A stretch of 32,687 nucleotides of DNA, taken from IMG/VR virus record IMGVR_UViG_3300035201_000363, positions 1 through 32,687 of that record; one strand, given 5' to 3'. The position numbers and the translations under genes were made by a program. The notes under the pieces were generated by a model, which did not search any database, was not told the DNA's origin, and worked only from the letters and a program-made list of their open reading frames with translations. Of this stretch, positions 8,752 through 28,772 are shown piece after piece; position 1 is the first letter of the stretch, and each line of letters starts with the position of its first letter. Origin of the DNA: a virus.

Positions 8752-9651
8752 ATGGCATTAACATTTGATGAAATCTGGGTATACAATGGGCAATTAGTTG
8801 TTGCTGAACCTTTTACTACTCCTAAAGTTTTAGGAACAGGAAGGGATAAGATTAAATGGTCCTCATTTATTCAAGGGTCGCTTCAGGTTGGTTCCGTTGA
8901 TAACTTTGGATCTGGTGATTATCCAGGTACTGCGACTGTAATGGTTGGTCGGACAGATACTAAAAAGACACCTAGATCACTTAATACAAGAGGTAATGTA
9001 TTAGTTGAAGGTGATGCTGGAACTCCATGGGCGGTTAATATTCAAGGTAATACAGAGATAAAAGGAGGTGGACAGACTGCTAATGGTCTTTGGGTAACTG
9101 GTGGATCATCCGTTGATTCTCTTTATGTTGATGGTGATGTATTTGTTACTGGATCTGTTGATTGTCTTTCTAAGGGACGATTAGAAGCAAGACACTCAGT
9201 TGCTGATGGTAAACCAAAACCTTTTGATATACAACATCCATCTAAGGGTGAAGGACATCGACTTAGATATGCATGTATTGAGGGACCAGAGGTTGGTGTA
9301 TATTGTAGAGGACGACTAAGGAATCAAAATGAGATTGCATTACCTGACTACTGGAAAGACTTAGTATATGTTGAGAGTATTTCTGTTCATATACAACCAA
9401 TAAGAGCACATCAAGATATTATTGTGAAGAGATGGGACGATGAGAGAATTTATCTTCAGAGCCAAGGAGGACTTCCTATTGATTGTTTCTATCATGTGTA
9501 TGGAGAGAGAAAGGATGTTAATCCATTACATGTAGAGTATGAGGGAGATAGTTGGGAAGATTATCCAGATCCAAATTATAAACCTGGTGCAGAAAATCCA
9601 GTTTATAATGATCCACAATACGCAGGTCTTAAGAATACTGTAACGATTTGA
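8752..9651 (+). CDS. Beta-rich virion protein with HPxKxxxHRL/EGPE/RG motif
   Basis: 299 residues, with a strong AGGAGGG site just before the ATG. Residues 1-150 are beta-rich (TRGNVLVEGDAG, VNIQGNTEIKGGG, SLYVDGDVFVTGSVD), like a short fibre stalk. Residues about 158-225 carry FDIQHPSKGEGHRLRYACIE, then GPEVGVYCRGRL and ALPDYWKDLV. I recall this cluster near the C-terminus of many fibre and fibre-like proteins, where it may mark a trimerising or processing domain. The tail is acidic with Tyr/Pro (WEDYPDPNYKPGAENPVY). The stop overlaps the TTG start of the next gene. It is probably a baseplate or short-fibre protein. Confidence 0.65.
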   Translation: MALTFDEIWVYNGQLVVAEPFTTPKVLGTGRDKIKWSSFIQGSLQVGSVDNFGSGDYPGTATVMVGRTDTKKTPRSLNTRGNVLVEGDAGTPWAVNIQGNTEIKGGGQTANGLWVTGGSSVDSLYVDGDVFVTGSVDCLSKGRLEARHSVADGKPKPFDIQHPSKGEGHRLRYACIEGPEVGVYCRGRLRNQNEIALPDYWKDLVYVESISVHIQPIRAHQDIIVKRWDDERIYLQSQGGLPIDCFYHVYGERKDVNPLHVEYEGDSWEDYPDPNYKPGAENPVYNDPQYAGLKNTVTI

Positions 9652-10145
9652 AGAAACTACTTTATGTTGAGGAGAATTTTATATCTCCTAGTGAATGTCA
9701 AGAACTTATAGATCTTTCCAAAGCAAATAAGGAAGAGATTCCTTATGGTAATGAAACTAGAGGTGGAGATACATTTCTTACAACTCTTGATGGTATCTAT
9801 TTTGATGAGGGAAAAAATTCTGTAGTTGAAAGGGTAACTAATCTCTGTAAGAATTTTGATGATAGAGTAGTTATAGATTATGCAGGTGTAGTGAGATGGC
9901 CTGTTGGAACCTTTATGAAACCTCATATTGATCCACATAGACCCAACCAAGAACCTGATTTGTTTGCAGCAGTTCTTTATTTAAATGATGATTTTACTGG
10001 AGGTTATACTGGATTTGAGGAGTATGAAGTGAAACCAGAGACGGGGAAGTTACTTCTTTTTTCTAACTCAATCTATAAACATCACGTTACTAAGATTGAA
10101 GGAGTAGAAAGATTTGCTCTTAGTATATGGTACAATCGAAAATGA
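9648..10145 (+). CDS. 2-oxoglutarate/Fe(II) oxygenase (prolyl-hydroxylase-like) A
   Basis: 165 residues. The start is probably the TTG at 9648, which overlaps the previous stop (TTGA); the sister protein also begins MKKLLY. The fold signature is clear. H93-x-D95 (in MKPHIDPH) and H145 (in YKHHV) form the iron facial triad, and R155 lies ten residues after H145 where it would bind 2-oxoglutarate. GVVRWPVGTFMKPH and LYLNDDFTGGYTGF are typical of the prolyl-4-hydroxylase-like group. It should hydroxylate a protein or nucleic-acid side chain using O2, releasing succinate and CO2; the substrate is unknown. Tandem with a paralogue immediately downstream. Confidence 0.85.
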   Translation: MKKLLYVEENFISPSECQELIDLSKANKEEIPYGNETRGGDTFLTTLDGIYFDEGKNSVVERVTNLCKNFDDRVVIDYAGVVRWPVGTFMKPHIDPHRPNQEPDLFAAVLYLNDDFTGGYTGFEEYEVKPETGKLLLFSNSIYKHHVTKIEGVERFALSIWYNRK

Positions 10146-10735
10146 AAAAATTATTGTATATTGAAGAGGAGTTTTTAAATCCTTCTTTGTGTGAATCATT
10201 TACGGATCTTCATGTTAAAGAAAATGATACATTTTTGGAAGCAGTAACACATGCTCCAAATACGACAGAAGGTTTAACTTATGGACCTGATATACCAGAA
10301 CCAGATGGTGATTATGGTGCAATTTATCTTGGTGGAGATGTAAGTCCTGTAGATATTAAACTATCAAAGGATGAACTATTTGCTAATGTCATTGCAAATG
10401 TAACTAAAATTTGTAAGTCATTTCATAATGATATACAGTTAGATTACTGTGGTGTTATAAGATGGCCTACGGGTACATTCATGAAACCGCATTATGATAA
10501 GTCTGATATGTTTGGTGCTAATGTTCTTGCTGCATTCCTTTATTTGAATCATGATTTTGTTGGAGGTCATACACAATTTGATACTTTAGATGAGGAAGTT
10601 TGGTTTGATGTAAAACCAAAGGCAGGTAAATTATTAATATTTTCTAATAGAGAGTATTTGCATCATGTTAGTAAGGTTGAGTCAGGAACTAGATATGTAC
10701 TATCGTTTTGGTTTAATAGGATTGACAAACCTTAA
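10142..10735 (+). CDS. 2-oxoglutarate/Fe(II) oxygenase (prolyl-hydroxylase-like) B
   Basis: I choose the ATG at 10142 because it overlaps the previous stop (ATGA) and gives the N-terminus MKKLLYIEEEFLNPSLCE, matching the paralogue. The in-frame ATG at 10127 would add five residues inside the upstream gene. 197 residues; H117-x-D119, H174 and R184 form the iron and cosubstrate sites. Shared blocks with gene A include GVIRWPTGTFMKPHYD and LYLNHDFVGGHTQF, so the pair arose by duplication. B carries an insertion at about 35-75 (PDIPEPDGDYGAIYLGGD) that A largely lacks, possibly altering substrate choice. The substrate is unknown. Its 3' end contains the -35 box of the next gene's promoter. Confidence 0.85.
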   Translation: MKKLLYIEEEFLNPSLCESFTDLHVKENDTFLEAVTHAPNTTEGLTYGPDIPEPDGDYGAIYLGGDVSPVDIKLSKDELFANVIANVTKICKSFHNDIQLDYCGVIRWPTGTFMKPHYDKSDMFGANVLAAFLYLNHDFVGGHTQFDTLDEEVWFDVKPKAGKLLIFSNREYLHHVSKVESGTRYVLSFWFNRIDKP

Positions 10736-11035: not shown

Positions 11036-11176
11036 ATGGATACGACAACCACTTTTTCCGATCTTACGCTTTATGACTTTATTTTTCAATATTATCAATA
11101 TCCGGTAGATTCGGTAGATGAGACGGGGTTGTTATCGATATATTTTGAAAAAGACGTAGATTTGGATAAATCATGA
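11036..11176 (+). CDS. Small hypothetical ORF coupled to oxygenase C
   Basis: 46 residues (MDTTTTFSDLTLYDFIFQYY...). The stop overlaps the ATG of the next gene (ATGA), supporting translation coupling. It is acidic and aromatic, with no recognisable domain and no clear ribosome site; an AT-rich tract precedes the ATG. It uses CCG, TCG and ACG codons more than its neighbours, which may point to a different origin or to it not being a real gene. Confidence 0.45.
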   Translation: MDTTTTFSDLTLYDFIFQYYQYPVDSVDETGLLSIYFEKDVDLDKS

Positions 11177-11712
11177 CTATAATTTTTTCTAATTATTTCT
11201 ACGATCTTGTAGAACCTTCGAATAAGGAAGAAATATTGAATATTGCAGAAAATCCACCATTACATGAAAATCAGAATTTTGAGTGGTCCAAAGATTGTTC
11301 TGTAAGTTTAGAAAGGTTATCTTATAATGTATTTGGTGAATTAATTTTTCCAACATTATTAGAGTTTCAAAAAAAGTTTAATATAGACCGTCCATTTGCA
11401 GTAGAAGATGTTTGGAAAACAACTTACGAGAAAGGGTCATTTCAAGAAATTCACGATCATTCGGGATGTGAAATATCTTGTGTTATTTTTTTAGATGACC
11501 AGGAAGAGGATGGATCAAGGTTTTTCTTTTATAATAGACATGGTTCTGAATTATCATTAAGTTGGTTGGATTTTTTACCTGAAGACCCTCTTAATCATTA
11601 TGTTGAATATAAGAGAGGTGATGTTTTATTTTTTCCTTCATATATGTTACATGGTGTATCATGTCATCGAATAGATAAGAAAAGGAGAACAATTGCATTG
11701 AATTTTATATGA
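11173..11712 (+). CDS. 2-oxoglutarate/Fe(II) oxygenase-like protein C
   Basis: 179 residues, different from A and B. The core reads VEDVWKTTYEKGSFQEIHDH, then SCVIFLDDQEEDGSRFFFY, and ends in a GDVLFFPSYMLHGVSCHR segment. H94 and H96 (H-x-H where the usual motif is H-x-D) and distal H160 are likely metal ligands, and R171 or R172 is a candidate cosubstrate anchor. This resembles the 'putative 2OG-Fe(II) oxygenase' group seen in cyanophages. The H-x-H could still bind iron or could mean altered chemistry. The substrate is unknown. It starts by ATGA overlap with the 46-residue ORF. A TATAAATA box follows the stop. Confidence 0.7.
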   Translation: MTIIFSNYFYDLVEPSNKEEILNIAENPPLHENQNFEWSKDCSVSLERLSYNVFGELIFPTLLEFQKKFNIDRPFAVEDVWKTTYEKGSFQEIHDHSGCEISCVIFLDDQEEDGSRFFFYNRHGSELSLSWLDFLPEDPLNHYVEYKRGDVLFFPSYMLHGVSCHRIDKKRRTIALNFI

Positions 11713-18096: not shown

Positions 18097-21000
18097 ATGG
18101 GTCTTTCCAGATTAGAGAATTTTCTCAAGAATGCACGAGGTAATATCCTGTATGTTAGTCCAAATGACTTGGACTCTACAGATAGTATCGAGAATAAGGG
18201 AAATTCCTTAACCCGTCCTTTTAAGACCATCCAAAGGGCTCTTATTGAGGCATCCAGATTTTCATATCAGCGTGGTTTGAATAATGACCGTTTTGGTCAG
18301 ACCACAATCTTGCTGTATCCAGGGGATCATGTCATTGATAATAGACCTGGATGGATTCCTGATGGTTCTGCTAATTTTATTCGTAGAGATGGTACAACAT
18401 CATCTGATTTTAGTGCATGGGATTTAACAACTGTATTTGACCTAACGAACGCAAATAATGCCTTATATAAGCTTAATAGTATTCATGGTGGTGTAATTGT
18501 TCCTCGTGGTACTTCAATTGTAGGTTATGATTTAAGAAAGACAAAGATAAGACCTAAGTATGTTCCTTCTCCAACAAATGACAATATTGATCCAGGAGCA
18601 ATTTTTCGTGTAACTGGTGAGTGTTATTTTTGGCAATTTTCTATATTTGATGCGGATCCAAATGGTACTGCTTTTATTGATTATACTGCTAATACCTTTG
18701 TTCCTAACTTCTCTCATCATAAATTAACTGCATTTGAGTATGCTGATGGGGTTAATGATGTAGTTATTAAGGATTCATTCCAGACTTATGGAACTGACCG
18801 TACTGATTTGGAGATGTATTATGAGAAAGTGGGTCTTGTATATGGAACGGCTAGTGGTCGTGGAATTGAACCAGATTATCCATCTTCTGCAATAGATATT
18901 GAACCAAAAGTTGATGAGTATAGAATCGTTGGTTCTACGGGTGCATCTGTTGGTATTTCAAGTATTAAAGCAGGTAATGGTTCTGCTTCTTCATCTACTA
19001 TTACTGTTACAACAACAGAAGCAGTTGCTGGTCTTGATGTAGATACTCCATTTGTACTTGATGGAATTAGTGCAACTGGATATGACGGTAAATTTGTAGT
19101 TAGTGAAAAATTAAGTACCACAGAATTTAAGTATGAAGTTCAGAATGCTCCTGTTGATCCACTTCCATCAGTTACTGGTGCAACAGTAGAACTTAACTCT
19201 GATACTGTTACATCATCTTCTCCATATATCTTTAACTGTTCGATGAGATCAGTTTATGGTATGAATGGTCTTCATGCTGATGGTGCCAAAGCAACTGGAT
19301 TTAAGTCCATGGTTGCTGCTCAATTTACTGGTATTGGTCTGCAGAAAGATGATAATGCATTCTTAAAATATAATACAACAACTGGTGTATATGATGATGC
19401 TACTGTTCCTGGAAATGAGAACTTAAGTGTAGATTCACAAGCAATTTATAAACCATCATATGCAAACCAACATATTAGATGTTCGAATGATGCAGTTCTT
19501 CAGATAGTTTCTGTTTTCTGTATTGGTTATGCACGACATTTCTATGCAGAGACTGGTGGTGATATGTCAATCACCAACTCTAACTCAAACTTTGGTGCTA
19601 AGTCACTGGTTGCAAGGGGATATAAGGATAATGCATTCTCTCAAGATGATTTGGGATATATTAGTCATATTATTCCTCCAAAAGAGGTTGCAATTACTGA
19701 GAGTGCTATAGAATTTAATTCTGTTGATATTGAGAAGACAGTAGGTATTGCATCAACAGCACATTTATACCTTTATAATCAGAAGAATTTAGATGCTCCG
19801 CCTGAGAACGTATTAGATGGATATAGGGTTGGTGCAAGAGATTTAGATACACTTAATGTTCTAGTACCTAATGCTGCGGGAACACCAACTCAATATAGTT
19901 CTCGTATTGTGATGCCAGACTCAGAGTCGAGTATGGAGAAATCGTTTACGGTTAATCGAAGTTCTGCTGGAATTAATAGCATCACTGAGGTTACCAATGT
20001 TGTTACGTTAACACAAGCACATACTTTTGCAGATGGTGAATCTGTTCGTATTTTAAGTGATAATGGACGATTACCTGATGGTTTGAAGGGAAATACTGTA
20101 TATTATGCAATTACTAGTGATAATGCTAGTGCAGGAATAACTACTAATACTGATATTAAACTTGCAAAGACTGAAACGGACGCATTAAATGCAACTGCAT
20201 TATCTCTTAACAATCTTGGTGGTACTCTTACAATTGTAAGTAGGGTATCTGATAAGAACTCTGGTGACATTGGCCATCCAGTTCAGTGGGATAGTGACCA
20301 ATCACAGTGGTATATTAAGGTTTCCACTGCTTCTACTGATAATGCCATCTTTAATACTGTATGTGTTGGACTTGGTACAACTACATTAGGAGATGCTACT
20401 CCAAGGTCATACATTTATAGAAAGTCTGATAATAGAAATGCAAATGATACAACTTATAGGTTGAGGTATGTAATTCCTGCAAGTAGTGGTGGTGCAATTG
20501 CAAGACCACCTACTGATGGGTATATTTTACAGGAGTCTAATACTTCAATTGGTTCTACAAATACTGAAATTGATACTTACTTTGGTTCTGGTTCACTTGC
20601 TAATGAGAACCAGCAAAGAAACTTTAGATTTATTGCCAATACTCATTGGCAAGATGATTATGCAAATATCCTTACAGAACTTCCTCACAATCTTTCTGTA
20701 GGTTCTCAAGTAGAATTAGTTAATATTAAATCTACTGTTAACACTGTGGGTGCTGCTAATTCTGGATATAATGGTACATTCCCGGTAACTGGTATTACTA
20801 GTGCAAGACAGTTTACTGTTGGTATTGCTACTGATGCTGGTACATTTACAAGTGATACCTTAGCTAGAACTACATCACTTCCTTATTTCAAGAGGAAGAG
20901 ATATGACAAGACATATTTCATTCAGGGCACAGAAGAAACTCAAAAGTATGTTCAAGGAAAACAGGATGGTATTTACTATCTAACAGTATTAAATGCCTCT

Positions 21001-24000
21001 AATAATCCTGCTATAGATCCATTTACTGGTGATAAATTCTCACAACCAGTTAAGAATTTATATCCACAAACTGATAGGGATAATCCAGTTTCCGACCCAG
21101 AAGGAACACTTTGCTATGCATTATCAGAGACTATTGGTGATGTTATTGTAGATGATGTTAAAAAGAGTATTACTAGAGAAACAATTGATAAGTTTATTTC
21201 TGATATTGATGTTGGTATTGGATTAACTGATATCATAACATCTGTTGGTGGAACATTCCATAGGTTTAATACTGAGATTGATCATGGATTAAATCGTGTT
21301 GCTGCTGTAAGTATTGCAAGTAGTGGTACTGGTTATGGTACGAATGTTGATGCTGATTACTATAATGCAAAACTAGTTGGTATTGGAACTTCTACGACTG
21401 GACTTCATGCTACAGCACGAGTTACTGTAGATGCTACTGGTGGTATTACTGATGTCAAGATAATGGATGGTGGTAGTGCCTATGGTATAGGTAATACCCT
21501 GAATGTTGTTGGTATTGCTACAACTGGTATTCATGCTGCTGCTGTTGTAACGGTAGATGGTATCTATGATAATGTTGGAGATGTAATTAGAATTACTGGA
21601 CTAACATCAGAAACTTATAAGGGTTATAATACTGTTTATAGGGTTGCTGATGTACAGGTTGGGGGTGCTAAGAGCTTTACTGTGATTAGTGACACTGCAA
21701 TTACTGGTGTAACAACTGCTGGTATAGGGTCAATAGCAACTGCTAATGTAACCGCATATTTGACAGGTCAGGCTATTGATATTAGTAATATTTCGTATAA
21801 TCCTACTAGTGGACTCGCAACAGTTACATCCGTTGTTTCTCATGGATTAAAGGCTAATGCTCAGGTTAGAATAACTACTGGTATTGCAACATTAACTACC
21901 TTCGACGGTGACTTTGTTGTTAACCAGAACGTAGACCTTAATAACTTCATAGTTAAGATTGGTGTTAATAAGGGGACTGAACCAGTTGCTGCTGGAGCAT
22001 CGATGTTTGTCCTTCGGAGAGGTGTAACATCTAATGATGGTATTCCAACGATTGAGAATGAGAGTTTGAATGGTAGAATGGTTCCAACATATGCTGGAAT
22101 TACGACAACATTATCAGTTGCTATTGCAGATGCTATTACGACAGAAGTAAGATTGACAGGTGTTGGAACTATAGGAGTGGAGATTGGTGATTATCTTTCT
22201 GTTGATGATGAGATTGTTAGAGTTAAGACAACTTCATCCAATCCAGCTTCAAACCCATTATATGTTTTCCGTGCTGTATTGGGAACAAGGGCAACTTCAC
22301 ACGTTACAGGTTCTGTAGTTCGTAGAGTTTCTCCATTACCAATTGAATTAAGACGACATTCACTTAACAGAGCATCTGGACATACATGGGAATATCTTGG
22401 ATACGGTCCAGGTAACTACTCAACTGGATTACCAGATAAGCAAAACCGTGATGTAACTGGTGTAGAAGAGACATTAGCACAAACCACAAGAATAGATGGT
22501 GGTGCTAACTACTTCACTGGAATGAATGACAAAGGTATTTCATTCTCAGGTAATAAGAAATTAAGTACTGTTAGTGGTACAGAAGAGGTCTTTAATACTC
22601 CAATTAGAAGTATTACTGGTGAGGATATCTCTGAGAAGAGTTCAATTAACTTAACCAAAGCAACAGAAGCAACATTTACGAAGTCAATTCGTGTTGATGG
22701 TGGTGATGAAGGTAAATCAATTTCTGAATTTACTGGTCCTGTTGTCTTTAGTAATAAGATAACCTCATCTTCTTCTAGAGGTATTGAGGCAACTCACTTA
22801 TTCCTACAGGGAGATTCAACAGTTTCTAGGAAATTAACTGTTGGAATTGCAACTCCAACTAATGCAGGAACTCCTGGAGATATTGTTTTCTTCGAAGATG
22901 CTTCACAAGGTGAGAATCTTGGATGGGTTTACACTTCAAATAGAGACTGGAAGAGATTTGGTAATATAAGTCTTGAAAAAGAGCAAAATTATTATGTTTC
23001 TGATAAGCACGGTGTTGCTATAGGAGCAGCAAGTTCTTCATATGATTTTGGTCAATCAACTTTCCAAGTAGGTGGAGGTTCAACAGCATTTGCAGTCACT
23101 AAAGACGGTGTTGGAATTGGTACTACAAATGGTGATGTTACCAACAATTGGAAACTTCATGTCATAGGTGATACTCAGCAATTGGGTAATGTTAATATTA
23201 CTGGTATTTGTACTGCTGGAGAGTTCTGGGGTAATGGTAGTCATATCACCAACCTAGATGCAGCTGCAATTGGATGGTCTCCTACTCTTGACCCAACAGG
23301 TGTTGGACAGACTGGTATATTTGCTGCAGCATCTGGTATTGTAACTACTGCACGAGTTGGTATTGGTACTTCGGTTCCTCAATATAATATGCATTTAGGA
23401 ACTCCTGGAGTAGGTAGAACTGACCTTTATGTTGCTAATAAGGCACTCTTTGATGGATTCTTACATGCTAATGATGTTGCTGTCAGTGGAGCATTGACGT
23501 GTGCTGGTAGTAGTTATAGACTTTGGAGTACTACTCAGGGTTGGGTAACTGCGGGTGTTGTAACTGCATATACTGCTCTTCAAGTTGGTAGCGATAATGC
23601 TAAATTTACAGTTACTGGTGATAAGTGTGGTATTGGAACTGCAACTCCAAGAGCAAAACTTGATGTAGATGGTGCAATTAAGATTCATACATCTTCAGAG
23701 AACATACAGCAACTTGCTATATCTGCTGGAAACGTTGATGTTGACCTTTCTAAGGCACAATCATTTGAATTGAATGTTGTATCTGCAGTAAGTCAATTTA
23801 CTCTACTTAATCCACCAGATGATGCAACATCATTTACGATTAAGATTGAGCAGAATTCTACTGGTTATTCTGTTGGTATAGATACATTTAAGAACGCTTC
23901 TGGTAATGCAATAAACGTTCGTTGGCCTGCTGGTGGAGTTATTCCAATCGTAACACAAGACCCTGATAAGATAGATATATATTCCTTTAAGACCTTTGAT

Positions 24001-24048
24001 AGTGGTGCTAATTTGTATGGCATTGTTGGCGGTCAAAACTTCGCTTAG
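18097..24048 (+). CDS. Giant tail fibre / virion structural protein
   Basis: 1983 residues, the largest gene here. Residues 1-260 resemble a pectin-lyase-like beta-helix (GNILYVSPNDLDSTDS, SLTRPFKTIQRALIEAS, ILLYPGDHVIDN). About 1060-1170 holds SSGTGYG and GGSAYGIG hairpins of the same kind as in the baseplate protein at 7170-8138. Residues about 1240-1420 have TTFDGDFVVNQ-type strands; from about 1580 fibre-stalk repeats appear (VGIGTSVPQYNMHLG, CGIGTATPRAKLDVDG). The final domain (VDLSKAQSFELNVVSAVS, TSFTIKIEQNSTGYSVG, a Trp-Pro-Ala-Gly-Gly turn and LYGIVGGQNFA) is a fibre cap I recall from many marine phages. It is probably a long fibre or baseplate-periphery protein. It is followed directly by a strong AGGGAGGG site for the Hint gene. 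Confidence 0.75.
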   Translation: MGLSRLENFLKNARGNILYVSPNDLDSTDSIENKGNSLTRPFKTIQRALIEASRFSYQRGLNNDRFGQTTILLYPGDHVIDNRPGWIPDGSANFIRRDGTTSSDFSAWDLTTVFDLTNANNALYKLNSIHGGVIVPRGTSIVGYDLRKTKIRPKYVPSPTNDNIDPGAIFRVTGECYFWQFSIFDADPNGTAFIDYTANTFVPNFSHHKLTAFEYADGVNDVVIKDSFQTYGTDRTDLEMYYEKVGLVYGTASGRGIEPDYPSSAIDIEPKVDEYRIVGSTGASVGISSIKAGNGSASSSTITVTTTEAVAGLDVDTPFVLDGISATGYDGKFVVSEKLSTTEFKYEVQNAPVDPLPSVTGATVELNSDTVTSSSPYIFNCSMRSVYGMNGLHADGAKATGFKSMVAAQFTGIGLQKDDNAFLKYNTTTGVYDDATVPGNENLSVDSQAIYKPSYANQHIRCSNDAVLQIVSVFCIGYARHFYAETGGDMSITNSNSNFGAKSLVARGYKDNAFSQDDLGYISHIIPPKEVAITESAIEFNSVDIEKTVGIASTAHLYLYNQKNLDAPPENVLDGYRVGARDLDTLNVLVPNAAGTPTQYSSRIVMPDSESSMEKSFTVNRSSAGINSITEVTNVVTLTQAHTFADGESVRILSDNGRLPDGLKGNTVYYAITSDNASAGITTNTDIKLAKTETDALNATALSLNNLGGTLTIVSRVSDKNSGDIGHPVQWDSDQSQWYIKVSTASTDNAIFNTVCVGLGTTTLGDATPRSYIYRKSDNRNANDTTYRLRYVIPASSGGAIARPPTDGYILQESNTSIGSTNTEIDTYFGSGSLANENQQRNFRFIANTHWQDDYANILTELPHNLSVGSQVELVNIKSTVNTVGAANSGYNGTFPVTGITSARQFTVGIATDAGTFTSDTLARTTSLPYFKRKRYDKTYFIQGTEETQKYVQGKQDGIYYLTVLNASNNPAIDPFTGDKFSQPVKNLYPQTDRDNPVSDPEGTLCYALSETIGDVIVDDVKKSITRETIDKFISDIDVGIGLTDIITSVGGTFHRFNTEIDHGLNRVAAVSIASSGTGYGTNVDADYYNAKLVGIGTSTTGLHATARVTVDATGGITDVKIMDGGSAYGIGNTLNVVGIATTGIHAAAVVTVDGIYDNVGDVIRITGLTSETYKGYNTVYRVADVQVGGAKSFTVISDTAITGVTTAGIGSIATANVTAYLTGQAIDISNISYNPTSGLATVTSVVSHGLKANAQVRITTGIATLTTFDGDFVVNQNVDLNNFIVKIGVNKGTEPVAAGASMFVLRRGVTSNDGIPTIENESLNGRMVPTYAGITTTLSVAIADAITTEVRLTGVGTIGVEIGDYLSVDDEIVRVKTTSSNPASNPLYVFRAVLGTRATSHVTGSVVRRVSPLPIELRRHSLNRASGHTWEYLGYGPGNYSTGLPDKQNRDVTGVEETLAQTTRIDGGANYFTGMNDKGISFSGNKKLSTVSGTEEVFNTPIRSITGEDISEKSSINLTKATEATFTKSIRVDGGDEGKSISEFTGPVVFSNKITSSSSRGIEATHLFLQGDSTVSRKLTVGIATPTNAGTPGDIVFFEDASQGENLGWVYTSNRDWKRFGNISLEKEQNYYVSDKHGVAIGAASSSYDFGQSTFQVGGGSTAFAVTKDGVGIGTTNGDVTNNWKLHVIGDTQQLGNVNITGICTAGEFWGNGSHITNLDAAAIGWSPTLDPTGVGQTGIFAAASGIVTTARVGIGTSVPQYNMHLGTPGVGRTDLYVANKALFDGFLHANDVAVSGALTCAGSSYRLWSTTQGWVTAGVVTAYTALQVGSDNAKFTVTGDKCGIGTATPRAKLDVDGAIKIHTSSENIQQLAISAGNVDVDLSKAQSFELNVVSAVSQFTLLNPPDDATSFTIKIEQNSTGYSVGIDTFKNASGNAINVRWPAGGVIPIVTQDPDKIDIYSFKTFDSGANLYGIVGGQNFA

Positions 24049-24062
24049 GGAGGGTCTAGATA

Positions 24063-26549
24063 ATGTCAAATAACATTTGGAACGAACCCACAACGACCAC
24101 CGACCTTAATGGTCCTAGGATTGCCATAAAAACTGATGCTTATGGTCATGCACCTGATAGTACTGCTGATAAGACAGTTGTAAATCCATTTGGCGATTCT
24201 AGTGGAAGAACTGGTGGTGTCATAGAGATTACTGGTATTGGAACTGCTACCTGGCCAGTAGGATATGGAACTTATGCGAGTAATACTGGATCTATCGGAT
24301 ATCAGTGGTATAGACTTAATGCAGATGGTTCTACTGATACCTTAGGAATTTCTACAAGGTATGAAGGTCAGGATACAAATACTTTAAGACTTAATTATCT
24401 TGATAATCCTGAGGATAATAATAAGCAGTATTATGTAAGAACTCATGTTATTCCGTCTGCATATGCTCAACCAGAAGGAACAGCAGTTATTGCTGGTACT
24501 GCACGTTCTACTGGATATGCTATTAATGAAGTCGCAGATAGTGGTAGAGTTACTGTAACCGTACTTCCAGAGTTAACTCTTAATACTCAACCAACTGATC
24601 AATCAGCAACGGTTAATAATACAGCAAAATTTTCTACAGAAGCATCAGTAACTGATGATACTCCTATTAGTTACCAGTGGTATGTTGATGGTAATTTGGT
24701 TACGGATGGTGATATAATTTCTACAAATCCAGAAGCAGTAAGAAAAGAAAGATATGCAGTAAATACTTCGAATGGTAGAGATAATAGTATTGTTATTCCT
24801 GATGATGCTACTAATGTAAAAGTAAGAATTGGTGCAGGTGCAGGTGGATATGGTGGTAGTGATACAAATGGTGGTGGTGGTGCTGGTGGATATGGACGAG
24901 TTGGATACTTTAATCTTCCTGATGGTGGAAGAACATTAACGATTAGGGTTGGTTCTAGAGGAAATAATGGCGGTGGTGGTACTAATGCTACAGGTGCTGC
25001 TGGTGGTCATGTAACTGATGAGGGTGATGGTGGACGTGGTGGTGGTGCTCCTGACAGTGGTGCAGGTGGCGGTGGCGCATCAGGTTGTTACATATATGAT
25101 GGTCTTACAGGAACATGGATTCTTGCTGCCGGAGGCGGCGGTGGAGGAGGAGGTGGCTCCTGGAATATGGGTGGAAATTCTGGAGGAAATGGTGGAGATT
25201 GGCAGGCAGTAGCAGGTGATTTGGGAAGAAGTTCTCAATGTACTGGTAAGCAAGGTGCTAGTCGTAGTACAGCATCAATAGAAAGAGGACCAACAAGTAC
25301 TAGTGTTACGTTTAGTGCTCGTATGCATAATGCAGAAGGATGTACATGGGTTTCTAGAGCTCCTGGTAAACCTTATGCTTTTAGTATCGGAAGCAATGGT
25401 GCTGACAAAACAGTAAATATACCATTTGGTCATGAAACAGAGGTTCATATAGTAGAAAGTCAGGGTGGATATGGTCATGTGCAGTGGACGAATAATCATA
25501 CAACAATGAAATATTGGCGACCTAATGTTAGTGTAAATTCAAGAGCCAATATCACAGTTACTGTTAATAATGGAAGATTTGATTCACGAGCATGGTTTGG
25601 ATCAGGTGGTCCAGATTGGTATAAAGATGGTCTTCATTATAATTATAGGTATCCTCATTTTATACCAACAATTGTTTGGGAACATAGTCCTAATACGCAA
25701 ATAAGAACCGACGGCGGTGGCGGCGGCGGTGGCGGCGGTGGCTGGATTGGTGGTAATGGTGGTACTGCGGGACTAGATAAAGTTCCTCCACCTCCTCCTC
25801 CTCCACCCCCACCCCCACCACCACCTCCATCAGGAGAAGATGGTGACGGAGGCGGCGGTGGTGGCGGATGCTTCACCGATGAAACCCGTGTTCTTATGAG
25901 GTCTTCTACTATTGTATTATCTGACGATAATGCTACTGAGGAGACGAAACCAATCTCTGAAGTCCTAGTTGGTGATTATGTCATGAATAAGGACAAGACA
26001 GAAGCGAATAAAGTCGTTTTTGTTGAGAAGTGGCCTGCTTTTGCTAAGGACATGAAGTTATATTCACCAAATAAAGAGGATAAACCATTTGCTACAACAA
26101 ATCATATGTTGTATATTAATGGAGAATGGGTAGCAGCTGATAAGGATTTGTATCCTTGGTTAGAAGATTGTGAACTTGTTTCTGACCCAGTTATTGAACC
26201 AGTAGGTCATAGAGACATCTATAACTTATGGGTAACTGGTGATGGTTCTTATGTTGTCAATGGTTATGGAACTCATTCGATTATGTTTGATGGTGGATTT
26301 ATGAAGAATGCACATGATCAGGGGTTACTTGGTTATGACGATGTTCTGAATCTAATGAGTGAGTTTACGGATGAGAAGTCTAATCTTTTATATGGTTCCT
26401 TCTTGGTCAATAGACTTTTAGGGAAGGTTAATGTTAGACTATTAAATAGATTATGGGTTCATATCTTCTGTGCAGATGACTCTTCTAAACGTAAGAAGTT
26501 GGCACATCTAGTAATGAGAGTCCTACAGAAAGTTAGGAGAATAGTTTAA
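24063..26549 (+). CDS. Gly/Pro-rich adhesin with C-terminal Hint domain
   Basis: 828 residues behind an AGGGAGGG site. Domains: an Ig-like strand (IGYQWYRLNADGS, 78-90); a second Ig-like domain (170-220; ISYQWYVDGNLV); a Gly-rich module (255-400; GCYIYDGLTGTWILAAGGGG); a beta domain (400-545); Gly tract 551-560; fifteen prolines 575-589; Gly tract 596-602; then a Hint domain 603 to about 740. Hint features: C603 (CFTDETRVLM), KPISEVLVGDYVMN (629-642), ATTNH (677-681) and IYNLWVTGDGSYVVNGYGTH (719-738). H738 is followed by Ser, not the Asn of splicing inteins, so N-terminal cleavage or transesterification is possible but full splicing is unlikely. A basic helical tail (741-828) ends the protein. 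The stop overlaps the next ATG (TAATG). It is probably a receptor-binding fibre that processes itself. Confidence 0.8.
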   Translation: MSNNIWNEPTTTTDLNGPRIAIKTDAYGHAPDSTADKTVVNPFGDSSGRTGGVIEITGIGTATWPVGYGTYASNTGSIGYQWYRLNADGSTDTLGISTRYEGQDTNTLRLNYLDNPEDNNKQYYVRTHVIPSAYAQPEGTAVIAGTARSTGYAINEVADSGRVTVTVLPELTLNTQPTDQSATVNNTAKFSTEASVTDDTPISYQWYVDGNLVTDGDIISTNPEAVRKERYAVNTSNGRDNSIVIPDDATNVKVRIGAGAGGYGGSDTNGGGGAGGYGRVGYFNLPDGGRTLTIRVGSRGNNGGGGTNATGAAGGHVTDEGDGGRGGGAPDSGAGGGGASGCYIYDGLTGTWILAAGGGGGGGGGSWNMGGNSGGNGGDWQAVAGDLGRSSQCTGKQGASRSTASIERGPTSTSVTFSARMHNAEGCTWVSRAPGKPYAFSIGSNGADKTVNIPFGHETEVHIVESQGGYGHVQWTNNHTTMKYWRPNVSVNSRANITVTVNNGRFDSRAWFGSGGPDWYKDGLHYNYRYPHFIPTIVWEHSPNTQIRTDGGGGGGGGGGWIGGNGGTAGLDKVPPPPPPPPPPPPPPPSGEDGDGGGGGGGCFTDETRVLMRSSTIVLSDDNATEETKPISEVLVGDYVMNKDKTEANKVVFVEKWPAFAKDMKLYSPNKEDKPFATTNHMLYINGEWVAADKDLYPWLEDCELVSDPVIEPVGHRDIYNLWVTGDGSYVVNGYGTHSIMFDGGFMKNAHDQGLLGYDDVLNLMSEFTDEKSNLLYGSFLVNRLLGKVNVRLLNRLWVHIFCADDSSKRKKLAHLVMRVLQKVRRIV
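25713..25868 (+). repeat. GC-rich poly-Gly / poly-Pro / poly-Gly codon tract
   Basis: Ten GGN codons (25713-25742), fifteen CCN codons (25785-25829) and seven GGN codons (25848-25868) form a sharp GC island in AT-rich DNA. The G-rich and C-rich arms are partly complementary (GGN against CCN), so a hairpin is possible. On the minus strand the proline block reads as runs of GG and GGGGG and could form G-quadruplexes. Codons are mixed rather than one repeated triplet. Confidence 0.8.
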
Positions 26550-26950
26550 TGACTGATTGGGTTCTTCAAAAACATACAAATCAGGAATTAGCGGCATGGC
26601 CTACTAACTTTCCTATTGTGACTAGTACTCTTGACAATTGTATTTTACTTAATGCTATTCTTAAGAATAGTGATCCCTATGATGATGACGAGGTGAGATA
26701 TCTTCGTCAACTTCAAGGAGCTGATAAACAAAGTGTGGGTGAGTATTATCATCGTTCTGAGATTATCATTACAGAAATGCGTAAGCAAGGTGCTGATAAT
26801 GAAGGTGTTTGGAATGAGGTAGACAGATTATACATTGATGCTATAATTGAGAAACTTAAAGTTCGTAATTTTAGTAATTTATTTTCTGATATTCGTAATG
26901 TTTTGGAACATTTAGAAACAAAATACGAGGTAGTTTACGATGGCCGCTAG
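26549..26950 (+). CDS. Small helical protein, function unknown
   Basis: 133 residues, starting at a TAATG overlap with the Hint gene and ending 11 bases inside the next gene. Predicted mostly alpha-helical and charged: LQKHTNQELAAWPTNFPIVT, then NCILLNAILKNSDPYDDDEV, and a C-terminal helix (NFSNLFSDIRNVLEHLETKY). No signal peptide or membrane segment. No family is recognised. Its position between two Gly-rich adhesins suggests an assembly chaperone or cap for one of them; a partner of the Hint protein is another possibility. Confidence 0.65.
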   Translation: MTDWVLQKHTNQELAAWPTNFPIVTSTLDNCILLNAILKNSDPYDDDEVRYLRQLQGADKQSVGEYYHRSEIIITEMRKQGADNEGVWNEVDRLYIDAIIEKLKVRNFSNLFSDIRNVLEHLETKYEVVYDGR

Positions 26951-28193
26951 ATCAGGAGGAGGTGGAGGTGGTACAAGTGCCTATAATAGTGAGGCAATAA
27001 CCTTACAGTCTGGTACTAGTGCTGCTACTGGAGTAGACCCTTATATTGAAATTGAATATACTTCTCCATCAAATACAGGTACTCAGGTTACTACAACTAC
27101 TAAAGTAACAGGGACACAGACTGATACTTTAACAATTGAGAGAGATACTGTTGGAGTTCATACAGTACAGTGTGCTATTTCTCATCCTATTGCTGTTAAT
27201 AATCCAGCATCTTCATCTACCAGAGAGAATTCTCCAATATGGACTGATAAGGTAGAGTTTAACACTATGAGTGCAGTGAACCTTACGAGGTCTAATCTTA
27301 CTTATGAGATTACTCAGGATAATCTTACTTCTGTTTTTTCATCAGCAACGGTAAACCTTTTTGTTCAACCAATGCAATTAACTGGTTGGGCAGAGAATGC
27401 AGAACGTAATATTCAAGTATTTGCTGAAGAAGAGGATTTGCAACTTAAGTTTACTATGGCAGGATCTGCAGGACAGGATTTTAATGGGCAGAAGGGAGGT
27501 GAAGGTGGTGAAACTGTTTTTAAGTATACTTTATTAAAAAATGTTGAATATACTTTAAAACTTGGATGCACTGTAGAACCAACATCATCAATTGGTAGAG
27601 GTGGTGGTGGCGCATATTTCTATGAAGGTGGAAGACTTTTAGTTGCTTGTGGTGGTGGCGGTGCTGCTGGATGGGGTCATCGTGGTGGTAAAGGTGGTGG
27701 AGCTGGAGTTGCTGGTGAAAATGGTGGAGGTTCTAATGGTGGAGATGGTGGTAAGAGAGCAAATGATGGTGAACTTCCTGCCTCTGGCATATTACCTTCT
27801 GGAAAAAAAGGTGGTAAAGTAGAATCTTGTACAACAGGACAATTCTTAAGAGATCAGGGACATGCTCCTTGTGAGTATATTGGACCAAGCGAAAGGTTTA
27901 TGCTTTATAATGGAACTAAAAATATGAATACCCGTCTTATTAAGAGAGGATATAAGGCTGATTATGGTAAGCATGGATATCGTCACAATGGAGGAAATAG
28001 TGCTAGTCAGGTGAATGGAACATGGATTGGTGGTGGTGGTGCTGGTGCTTATGGTGGTGAGTCTACTGGTGACCCGACTTCTGCTGGGGGAGGTGGTAGT
28101 GGATATACAAATGGTAGTGTAACTATTATTAGTACCAAACAAGGTGGAAACACAAATGCTTTGTCTCAATGTTTAATTGAATTAGTAGTATAA
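26940..28193 (+). CDS. Glycine-rich adhesin
   Basis: 417 residues. It opens with a Gly tract (residues 6-11), then a beta domain about 35-145 (PYIEIEYTSPS, TLTIERDTVGVHTVQCAISH). From about 185 it is Gly-rich: GGGGAYFYEGGRLLVACGGG (221-240), GGKGGGAGVAGENGGGSNGG and, near the end, GGGGAGAYGGES and GGGGSGYTNGSV. The 'GGG.YFY.G..LLVACGGGG' module parallels the one in the Hint protein and is like the Gly-rich modules of ALK-type receptors and of phage gp38-type adhesins, where poly-Gly helices bundle into a receptor-binding tip. That structural comparison is from memory. It overlaps the upstream gene by 11 bases; the oxygenase starts four bases downstream. Confidence 0.75.
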   Translation: MAARSGGGGGGTSAYNSEAITLQSGTSAATGVDPYIEIEYTSPSNTGTQVTTTTKVTGTQTDTLTIERDTVGVHTVQCAISHPIAVNNPASSSTRENSPIWTDKVEFNTMSAVNLTRSNLTYEITQDNLTSVFSSATVNLFVQPMQLTGWAENAERNIQVFAEEEDLQLKFTMAGSAGQDFNGQKGGEGGETVFKYTLLKNVEYTLKLGCTVEPTSSIGRGGGGAYFYEGGRLLVACGGGGAAGWGHRGGKGGGAGVAGENGGGSNGGDGGKRANDGELPASGILPSGKKGGKVESCTTGQFLRDQGHAPCEYIGPSERFMLYNGTKNMNTRLIKRGYKADYGKHGYRHNGGNSASQVNGTWIGGGGAGAYGGESTGDPTSAGGGGSGYTNGSVTIISTKQGGNTNALSQCLIELVV

Positions 28194-28196
28194 TGA

Positions 28197-28772
28197 ATGT
28201 ATCATCGTGAATTTATTGAACCTTATTATCTGGAAAAATTAAATAAGGGTGAATTAGGAGAAATACAAAAATATATCTCAAATTTATCAGATAGTGATTA
28301 CAAACATAATGAGTTTGAACACTATGATGGATTTGAGAAAAAGCAATATGATAAGTATCGTTCGTGTGAGATACATTATCCAAAAGATTCTAGTATTTTA
28401 CCTCGTATAGGTAGAAAGTATTTTCAGCATCTAAATAATCAGTTTTATCGGTATGATTTAAAAAATCTCTTTGAATTTCAACTGATTAAATATTATGTTG
28501 GTGGGAATTATAATTGGCATTGTGATTATGGAATTGCTCCAAAGAGAGGAATGTCTAGAAAATTGAGTATGAGTATACAATTGACACCACCAGAAGAGTA
28601 TGAAGGTGGAGAACTTGAAGTGGTTGATTATGCTAATCATACATTGATGATTTCAGGTGATTTGGGTACAGTTATTGTTTTTGATTCCAAATTACCACAT
28701 AAGGTATGGCCAGTTACATGGGGTCAGAGGATTTCATTGGTTGGATGGGCAAATGGACCACGATTGAGATAG
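28197..28772 (+). CDS. PKHD-type 2-oxoglutarate/Fe(II) hydroxylase
   Basis: 191 residues, starting just after the Gly-rich adhesin stop. H108-x-D110 (in YNWHCDYG), H168 (in LPHKVWPV) and R178 (in WGQRISLVGW), ten residues after H168, give the full iron and 2-oxoglutarate set. RKLSMSIQLTPPEEYEGGEL and GTVIVFDSKLPHKVWPVT match PKHD/prolyl-4-hydroxylase-type proteins closely. It belongs to a different branch from genes A, B and C. It is the fourth gene of a coupled unit with the poly-Pro Hint protein and a Gly-rich adhesin, which makes those virion proteins candidate substrates (inference). A TATAAATA box follows the stop. Confidence 0.88.
   Translation: MYHREFIEPYYLEKLNKGELGEIQKYISNLSDSDYKHNEFEHYDGFEKKQYDKYRSCEIHYPKDSSILPRIGRKYFQHLNNQFYRYDLKNLFEFQLIKYYVGGNYNWHCDYGIAPKRGMSRKLSMSIQLTPPEEYEGGELEVVDYANHTLMISGDLGTVIVFDSKLPHKVWPVTWGQRISLVGWANGPRLR

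Follow-up and report, generated by a model that had tools for sequence, protein, structure and literature searches.

Does a phage chemically modify its own host-recognition protein? This question is raised by four coupled genes in the tail region of an aquatic virus. The genes lie in IMG/VR record IMGVR_UViG_3300035201_000363, the whole of which (32,687 bases) was analysed and is here called the window; it represents the cluster of baseplate and tail-fibre genes of a T4-like phage of cyanophage type. Cyanophages carry numerous 2OG-Fe(II) oxygenases, for which 2OG modulation or DNA repair have been suggested as roles (Sullivan et al. 2010, PMC3037559), and according to a Baltic Sea survey the viral use of prolyl 4-hydroxylase 'remains cryptic' (PMC9301287). 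In the open-licence literature, no report of a phage adhesin–hydroxylase pair was found. A sequence-only reading of the window had proposed such a pair, in which a prolyl-hydroxylase-like enzyme acts on the poly-proline tract of an adhesin encoded in the same unit.

All four open reading frames lie on the + strand, downstream of a large tail-fibre gene (18097–24048, + strand; 1,983 aa; phrog_529, E=0) that served as the conserved anchor for collecting related loci. They encode proteins of 828 aa (24063–26549), 133 aa (26549–26950), 417 aa (26940–28193) and 191 aa (28197–28772), and their junctions are, in order, TAATG (a 1-base overlap), an 11-base overlap and a 3-base gap, just as the sequence-only reading had described them. 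The 828-aa protein consists of an Ig-like N-terminus, a Gly-rich domain, a poly-proline tract, a Hint domain and a C-terminal tail. Its N-terminal half and the whole 417-aa Gly-rich protein together cover the two halves of phrog_24848 (799 aa) in order, the former matching residues 2–385 (4e-31) and the latter 390–793 (9e-47).

Both adhesin halves form one protein in the Synechococcus phages Bellamy and S-SM2 and in AG-345-E15, where the adhesin has neither poly-proline nor a Hint domain and is not directly followed by an oxygenase. It follows that the adhesin was split in the window and that its first half gained a poly-proline linker and a C-terminal module. In most relatives, the Hint half and the Gly-rich half are also a single protein. 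As a lone query, the 417-aa half found no relatives in viral contigs; an alignment query found some. The 133-aa protein has homologues of 38–43% identity in 5 loci and occurs in roughly half the loci with a split adhesin, irrespective of Hint domain or oxygenase; a locus scan did not find it in L008, L014, L022 or L116. It is possibly an assembly helper.

A related arrangement is found in SynMITS9220M01 (gp028–gp030), which shares with the window a syntenic split adhesin with 33 prolines, the small protein and the Gly-rich half. Unlike in the window, the prolines and a following Arg run lead into a helical, probably membrane-spanning C-terminus in place of the Hint domain, no oxygenase is adjacent, and a tail-fibre gene comes directly after the Gly-rich half. 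Runs of 28–34 consecutive prolines, usually followed by an Arg run and then a helical domain, occur in the adhesins of L001 (7130–8980), L021, L023, L112 and L113; this helical domain has a hydrophobic segment near its C-terminus and gave no family match.

The poly-proline tract of the window adhesin (residues 575–589; 25785–25829) is the sole run of four or more prolines in seven large window proteins, which total 5,804 residues with 3.6% proline. Its 15 consecutive prolines, followed by a Cys-led domain from residue 603, are as first reported. They are encoded by 6 CCT, 7 CCA and 2 CCC codons. This mixture rules out a DNA microsatellite and argues that it is the residue that has been kept.

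The assignment of the Cys-led domain (residues 603–739; 25869–26279) as a Hint domain holds by its motifs and through its homologues, although Pfam makes no Hint call on the window protein itself (best E 0.22, below the gathering score). Cys603 is the expected N-terminal nucleophile, with TTNH as block B and NGYGTHS as block G. In an alignment of homologues, Cys1, H79 and H136 are invariant in 7/7, and the TxNH and NGxGTH motifs are conserved, as is a basic C-terminal tail after the domain (26280–26546). L008 matches Hom_end_hint at 4e-4, and the wider relative L124 matches five Hint families at 1e-6 to 8e-4, all sub-threshold; the Pfam gathering score is passed only by the Hint form of L033. 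A tblastn search of cultured phages with the Hint region found nothing, and a profile search of the PDB with the Hint alignment gave a chance match only.

Cys1, TxxH and the C-terminal GTH motif are shared with Hint and bacterial intein-like (BIL) domains, the latter of which mainly cleave rather than splice (PMC7664689). The marine forms differ from these in having no terminal Asn (THS or THC), so that splicing is not expected, and in their position, C-terminal on a Gly-rich adhesin and after poly-proline. Intein splicing calls for a C-terminal Asn and a Cys, Ser or Thr at +1; the window has THS followed by Ile, and its relatives have THS or THC. Joining of the two adhesin halves by intein splicing was considered and rejected, given the missing Asn, the complete Hint domain within one gene and the separate starts of the following genes. 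With the splicing Asn absent, the domain probably cleaves at its N-terminal Cys, as hedgehog and BIL domains do; in the window adhesin, this would cut the chain at Cys603.

The same Hint type also ends unrelated phage proteins in L123 (3255–8504) and L124 (3095–4705), and in L123 PPPPPPRRRGR or similar precedes the Hint Cys; the tail of poly-proline/Arg and Hint gives the impression of a mobile C-terminal module. In a Burkholderiales MAG (L197, 1–1026), runs of 14 and more than 30 prolines are followed by a Hint domain of the window-adhesin type (37% identity). No oxygenase was seen within 5 kb downstream, and the upstream side is cut by the contig end.

The last gene of the unit (28197–28772) encodes a 2OG-Fe(II) oxygenase that matches PF13640 with 54.9 bits against a gathering score of 27 (E 1.7e-14). 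The iron ligands H108, D110 and H168 of the HxD...H triad and the 2OG-binding R178 (28518–28730) are present, as had been claimed, and are invariant in an alignment of four. Its best PDB relatives are the PKHD-type Sbal_3634 and PiuC (1e-10 to 4e-9), while true prolyl 4-hydroxylases match weakly (P4H 5c5t, 0.007), so that characterised P4H enzymes are not its closest relatives. The label 'prolyl-hydroxylase-like' thus stands as a family resemblance but not as a substrate assignment, since the nearest solved relatives are not proven prolyl hydroxylases and family membership does not fix the substrate. With the PKHD-type hydroxylases YbiX and PiuC (PF13640) it shares the fold family, the HxD..H iron site and the Arg for 2OG. 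It differs from them in falling below the NCBIfam equivalog cut-offs (57 vs 143 bits; PRK05467, 1.5e-15) and in that its gene adjoins that of a virion adhesin.

The window holds four 2OG oxygenases, with starts at 9648, 10127, 11173 and 28197. The first two are tandem PF13640 genes (9648–10145 and 10127–10735) upstream of the fibre; the pair is also present in L024 and L085, and single relatives lie just upstream of the fibre in about 10 other loci. The third (11173–11712), in the same fibre cluster, is of a different type (PF13759, 7.9e-12).

Whether the adhesin and the oxygenase belong together beyond the window was addressed by a survey of related loci. These were collected with a conserved segment (ELRRHS..) from the C-terminal region of the upstream fibre as anchor, which gave two sets of at most 80 viral loci each, and with alignments of the Hint domain, the Gly-rich half, the oxygenase and the small protein, the last of which gave no new contig; loci were scanned in all six frames. 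The survey comprises 76 adhesin loci with no less than 1 kb of downstream sequence, which group into 46 clusters at 60% identity. All four clusters that combine at least 10 consecutive prolines with a Hint domain have an oxygenase no more than 30 bp from the adhesin unit, as against 0/42 others (Fisher 6e-6); the cut of 10 prolines was chosen post hoc (7 without enzyme, 10 with), independence between clusters is not complete, and the four include the window, which raised the question by its oxygenase. The other three are L008, L015/L016/L117 and L033/L037/L038. No PF13640 gene besides the adhesin-linked one was found in the records of L015 (62 kb) and L117 (30 kb). Adjacency of this kind is not a chance neighbourhood.

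The co-occurrence that the sequence-only reading had seen in one genome thus extends far beyond the window, but not to every Hint adhesin. That reading had taken related genomes with the Hint adhesin and no oxygenase as grounds for refutation, and such genomes exist: no adjacent oxygenase was found in L014 and L116 (Hint, no poly-proline) or in L022/L119 (Hint, 7 prolines), and no PF13640 match occurs anywhere in the L116 record (74.6 kb). All of these have 0–7 consecutive prolines, so that the hypothesis survives in a narrowed form that demands both a long poly-proline tract and a Hint domain. Because the Hint domain without long poly-proline lacks the enzyme, the linker rather than the Hint domain is favoured as substrate. 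Against a dedicated enzyme counts that the five loci with 28–34 prolines and no Hint domain (SynMITS9220M01, L021, L023, L112 and L113) have no adjacent oxygenase either; the complete genome of SynMITS9220M01 has one weak, sub-threshold PF13640 match only, 80 kb away. Poly-proline alone therefore does not require hydroxylation, and it is the combination that goes with the enzyme.

The pairing appears to have been assembled repeatedly. In L033, L037 and L038, called freshwater-type after their branch in the fibre set and not after habitat, the adhesin is one protein with 13–14 prolines followed by tandem Hint/intein domains above Pfam cut-offs (8.6e-12, 1.6e-9), and a distantly related oxygenase lies 5 bp downstream on the opposite strand, in convergent orientation. 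Monophyly of the adhesin-linked oxygenases as a whole is rejected (AU p 0.0026), which implies at least two recruitments of a 2OG oxygenase beside a poly-proline/Hint adhesin and supports the conclusion that the pairing arose at least twice. The marine adhesin-linked oxygenases as one clade are compatible with the data (AU p 0.38); marine lineages A (window, L008) and B (L015, L016, L117) may represent one gain.

A further link is seen in charge. In L015, L016 and L117, linkers of net charge +30, +29 and +25 are paired with enzymes of −44, −41 and −28, whereas in the window and L008 linkers of −3 and −5 go with enzymes of 0 and 0; this match amounts to a single evolutionary contrast. The basic linkers are Pro/Arg-rich, with 29–32 Arg. 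The acidity of their enzymes comes partly from an acidic N-terminal extension, and their catalytic domains are the most acidic among the 47 oxygenases compared. An acidic enzyme where the linker is basic is as expected of an enzyme docking on the linker, and the charge match supports a physical link between the two.

In principle, the adhesin need not be the substrate at all. One of the many cyanophage 2OG oxygenases, with a metabolic, DNA-repair or surface-modifying role, could have landed by chance in a variable fibre region. The four such enzymes in the window are in keeping with this, as are 356 phage records with oxygenase relatives, often in fibre or tRNA hot spots, and the roles in 2OG modulation or DNA repair proposed by Sullivan et al. 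(2010, PMC3037559). Oxygenases are also frequent in fibre regions that have no poly-proline, for example in S-SM2, which speaks against a dedicated enzyme. Chance landing nevertheless seems fairly unlikely, since adjacency in all poly-proline/Hint clusters and in 0/42 others, from at least two independent origins and once in convergent orientation, is not what it predicts, and it leaves the charge covariation without a reason. Still less does common descent account for the linkage. A single adhesin–oxygenase cassette spread by tail-tip recombination would produce linkage by shared ancestry only, and the marine adhesin-linked oxygenases do group with S-CAM7, ACG-2014f and L009 in a supported clade of eight, the window and L008 being 69% identical. 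In the freshwater-type cassette, however, the oxygenase belongs to a different branch and lies on the opposite strand, and the Hint domain is of another type; where the prolines are short, and just there, the marine oxygenase has been lost or is absent. Such hitch-hiking is very improbable.

It is also conceivable that the oxygenase does modify the adhesin but at another place, be it on Arg or Asn in the basic linker, in the Gly-rich loops, in the Hint domain or in the C-tail, with poly-proline merely marking the adhesin type. 2OG enzymes that hydroxylate Arg, Asn or Lys exist, the PKHD/PiuC relatives have no settled substrate, and the linkers of L015, L016 and L117 are rich in Arg. The linkers of the window and L008, by comparison, contain zero Arg, poly-proline followed by Hint is the feature common to all four clusters, and Hint adhesins with few prolines have the same Gly-rich domain without the enzyme. 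Modification elsewhere is thus unlikely, and prolyl hydroxylation is the leading reaction, because proline is the only residue type abundant in the linkers of all four clusters.

Taken together, these data suggest that the host-recognition protein is chemically modified by an enzyme of the phage itself. There is about an even chance that the unit comprises a two-part tail-tip adhesin and a dedicated 2OG-Fe(II) oxygenase acting on the Pro-rich linker before the Hint cleavage site. A more specific and general proposal, that dedicated phage prolyl hydroxylases modify the poly-proline stalk of a self-processing (Hint) receptor-binding protein, in a pair assembled at least twice and with enzyme charge co-evolving with the linker, is put forward tentatively. 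The polyproline-II form is favoured by hydroxyproline. The enzyme would act on the linker that joins the Gly-rich adhesin domain to the Hint domain, and hydroxylated prolines would give a stiffer polyproline-II spacer. Hydroxylation would take place before or during Hint cleavage at Cys603; the Hint domain would then shed itself, and the stiffened spacer would become the adhesin C-terminus. We infer the substrate, proline as the target, the cleavage and the mechanical role from this arrangement, and hydroxylation may in addition control Hint cleavage.

A viral precedent is the prolyl 4-hydroxylase of chlorella virus PBCV-1, which, going by its title, is described with peptide substrates (Eriksson 1999, as cited in PMC9301287). 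It resembles the window enzyme in that it, too, is a 2OG oxygenase encoded by a virus, with Pro-rich proteins of that virus as its proposed targets (PMC9301287). It differs in its algal host and its subfamily, while the window enzyme has one fixed adhesin partner, in a bacteriophage.

For cyanophages, the pairing offers a concrete, testable substrate for one class of their 2OG-Fe(II) oxygenases. If the proposal is true, the maturation of a phage receptor-binding protein would include a step that depends on oxygen and iron, and host recognition could depend on oxygen, iron and 2OG status in the infected cell.
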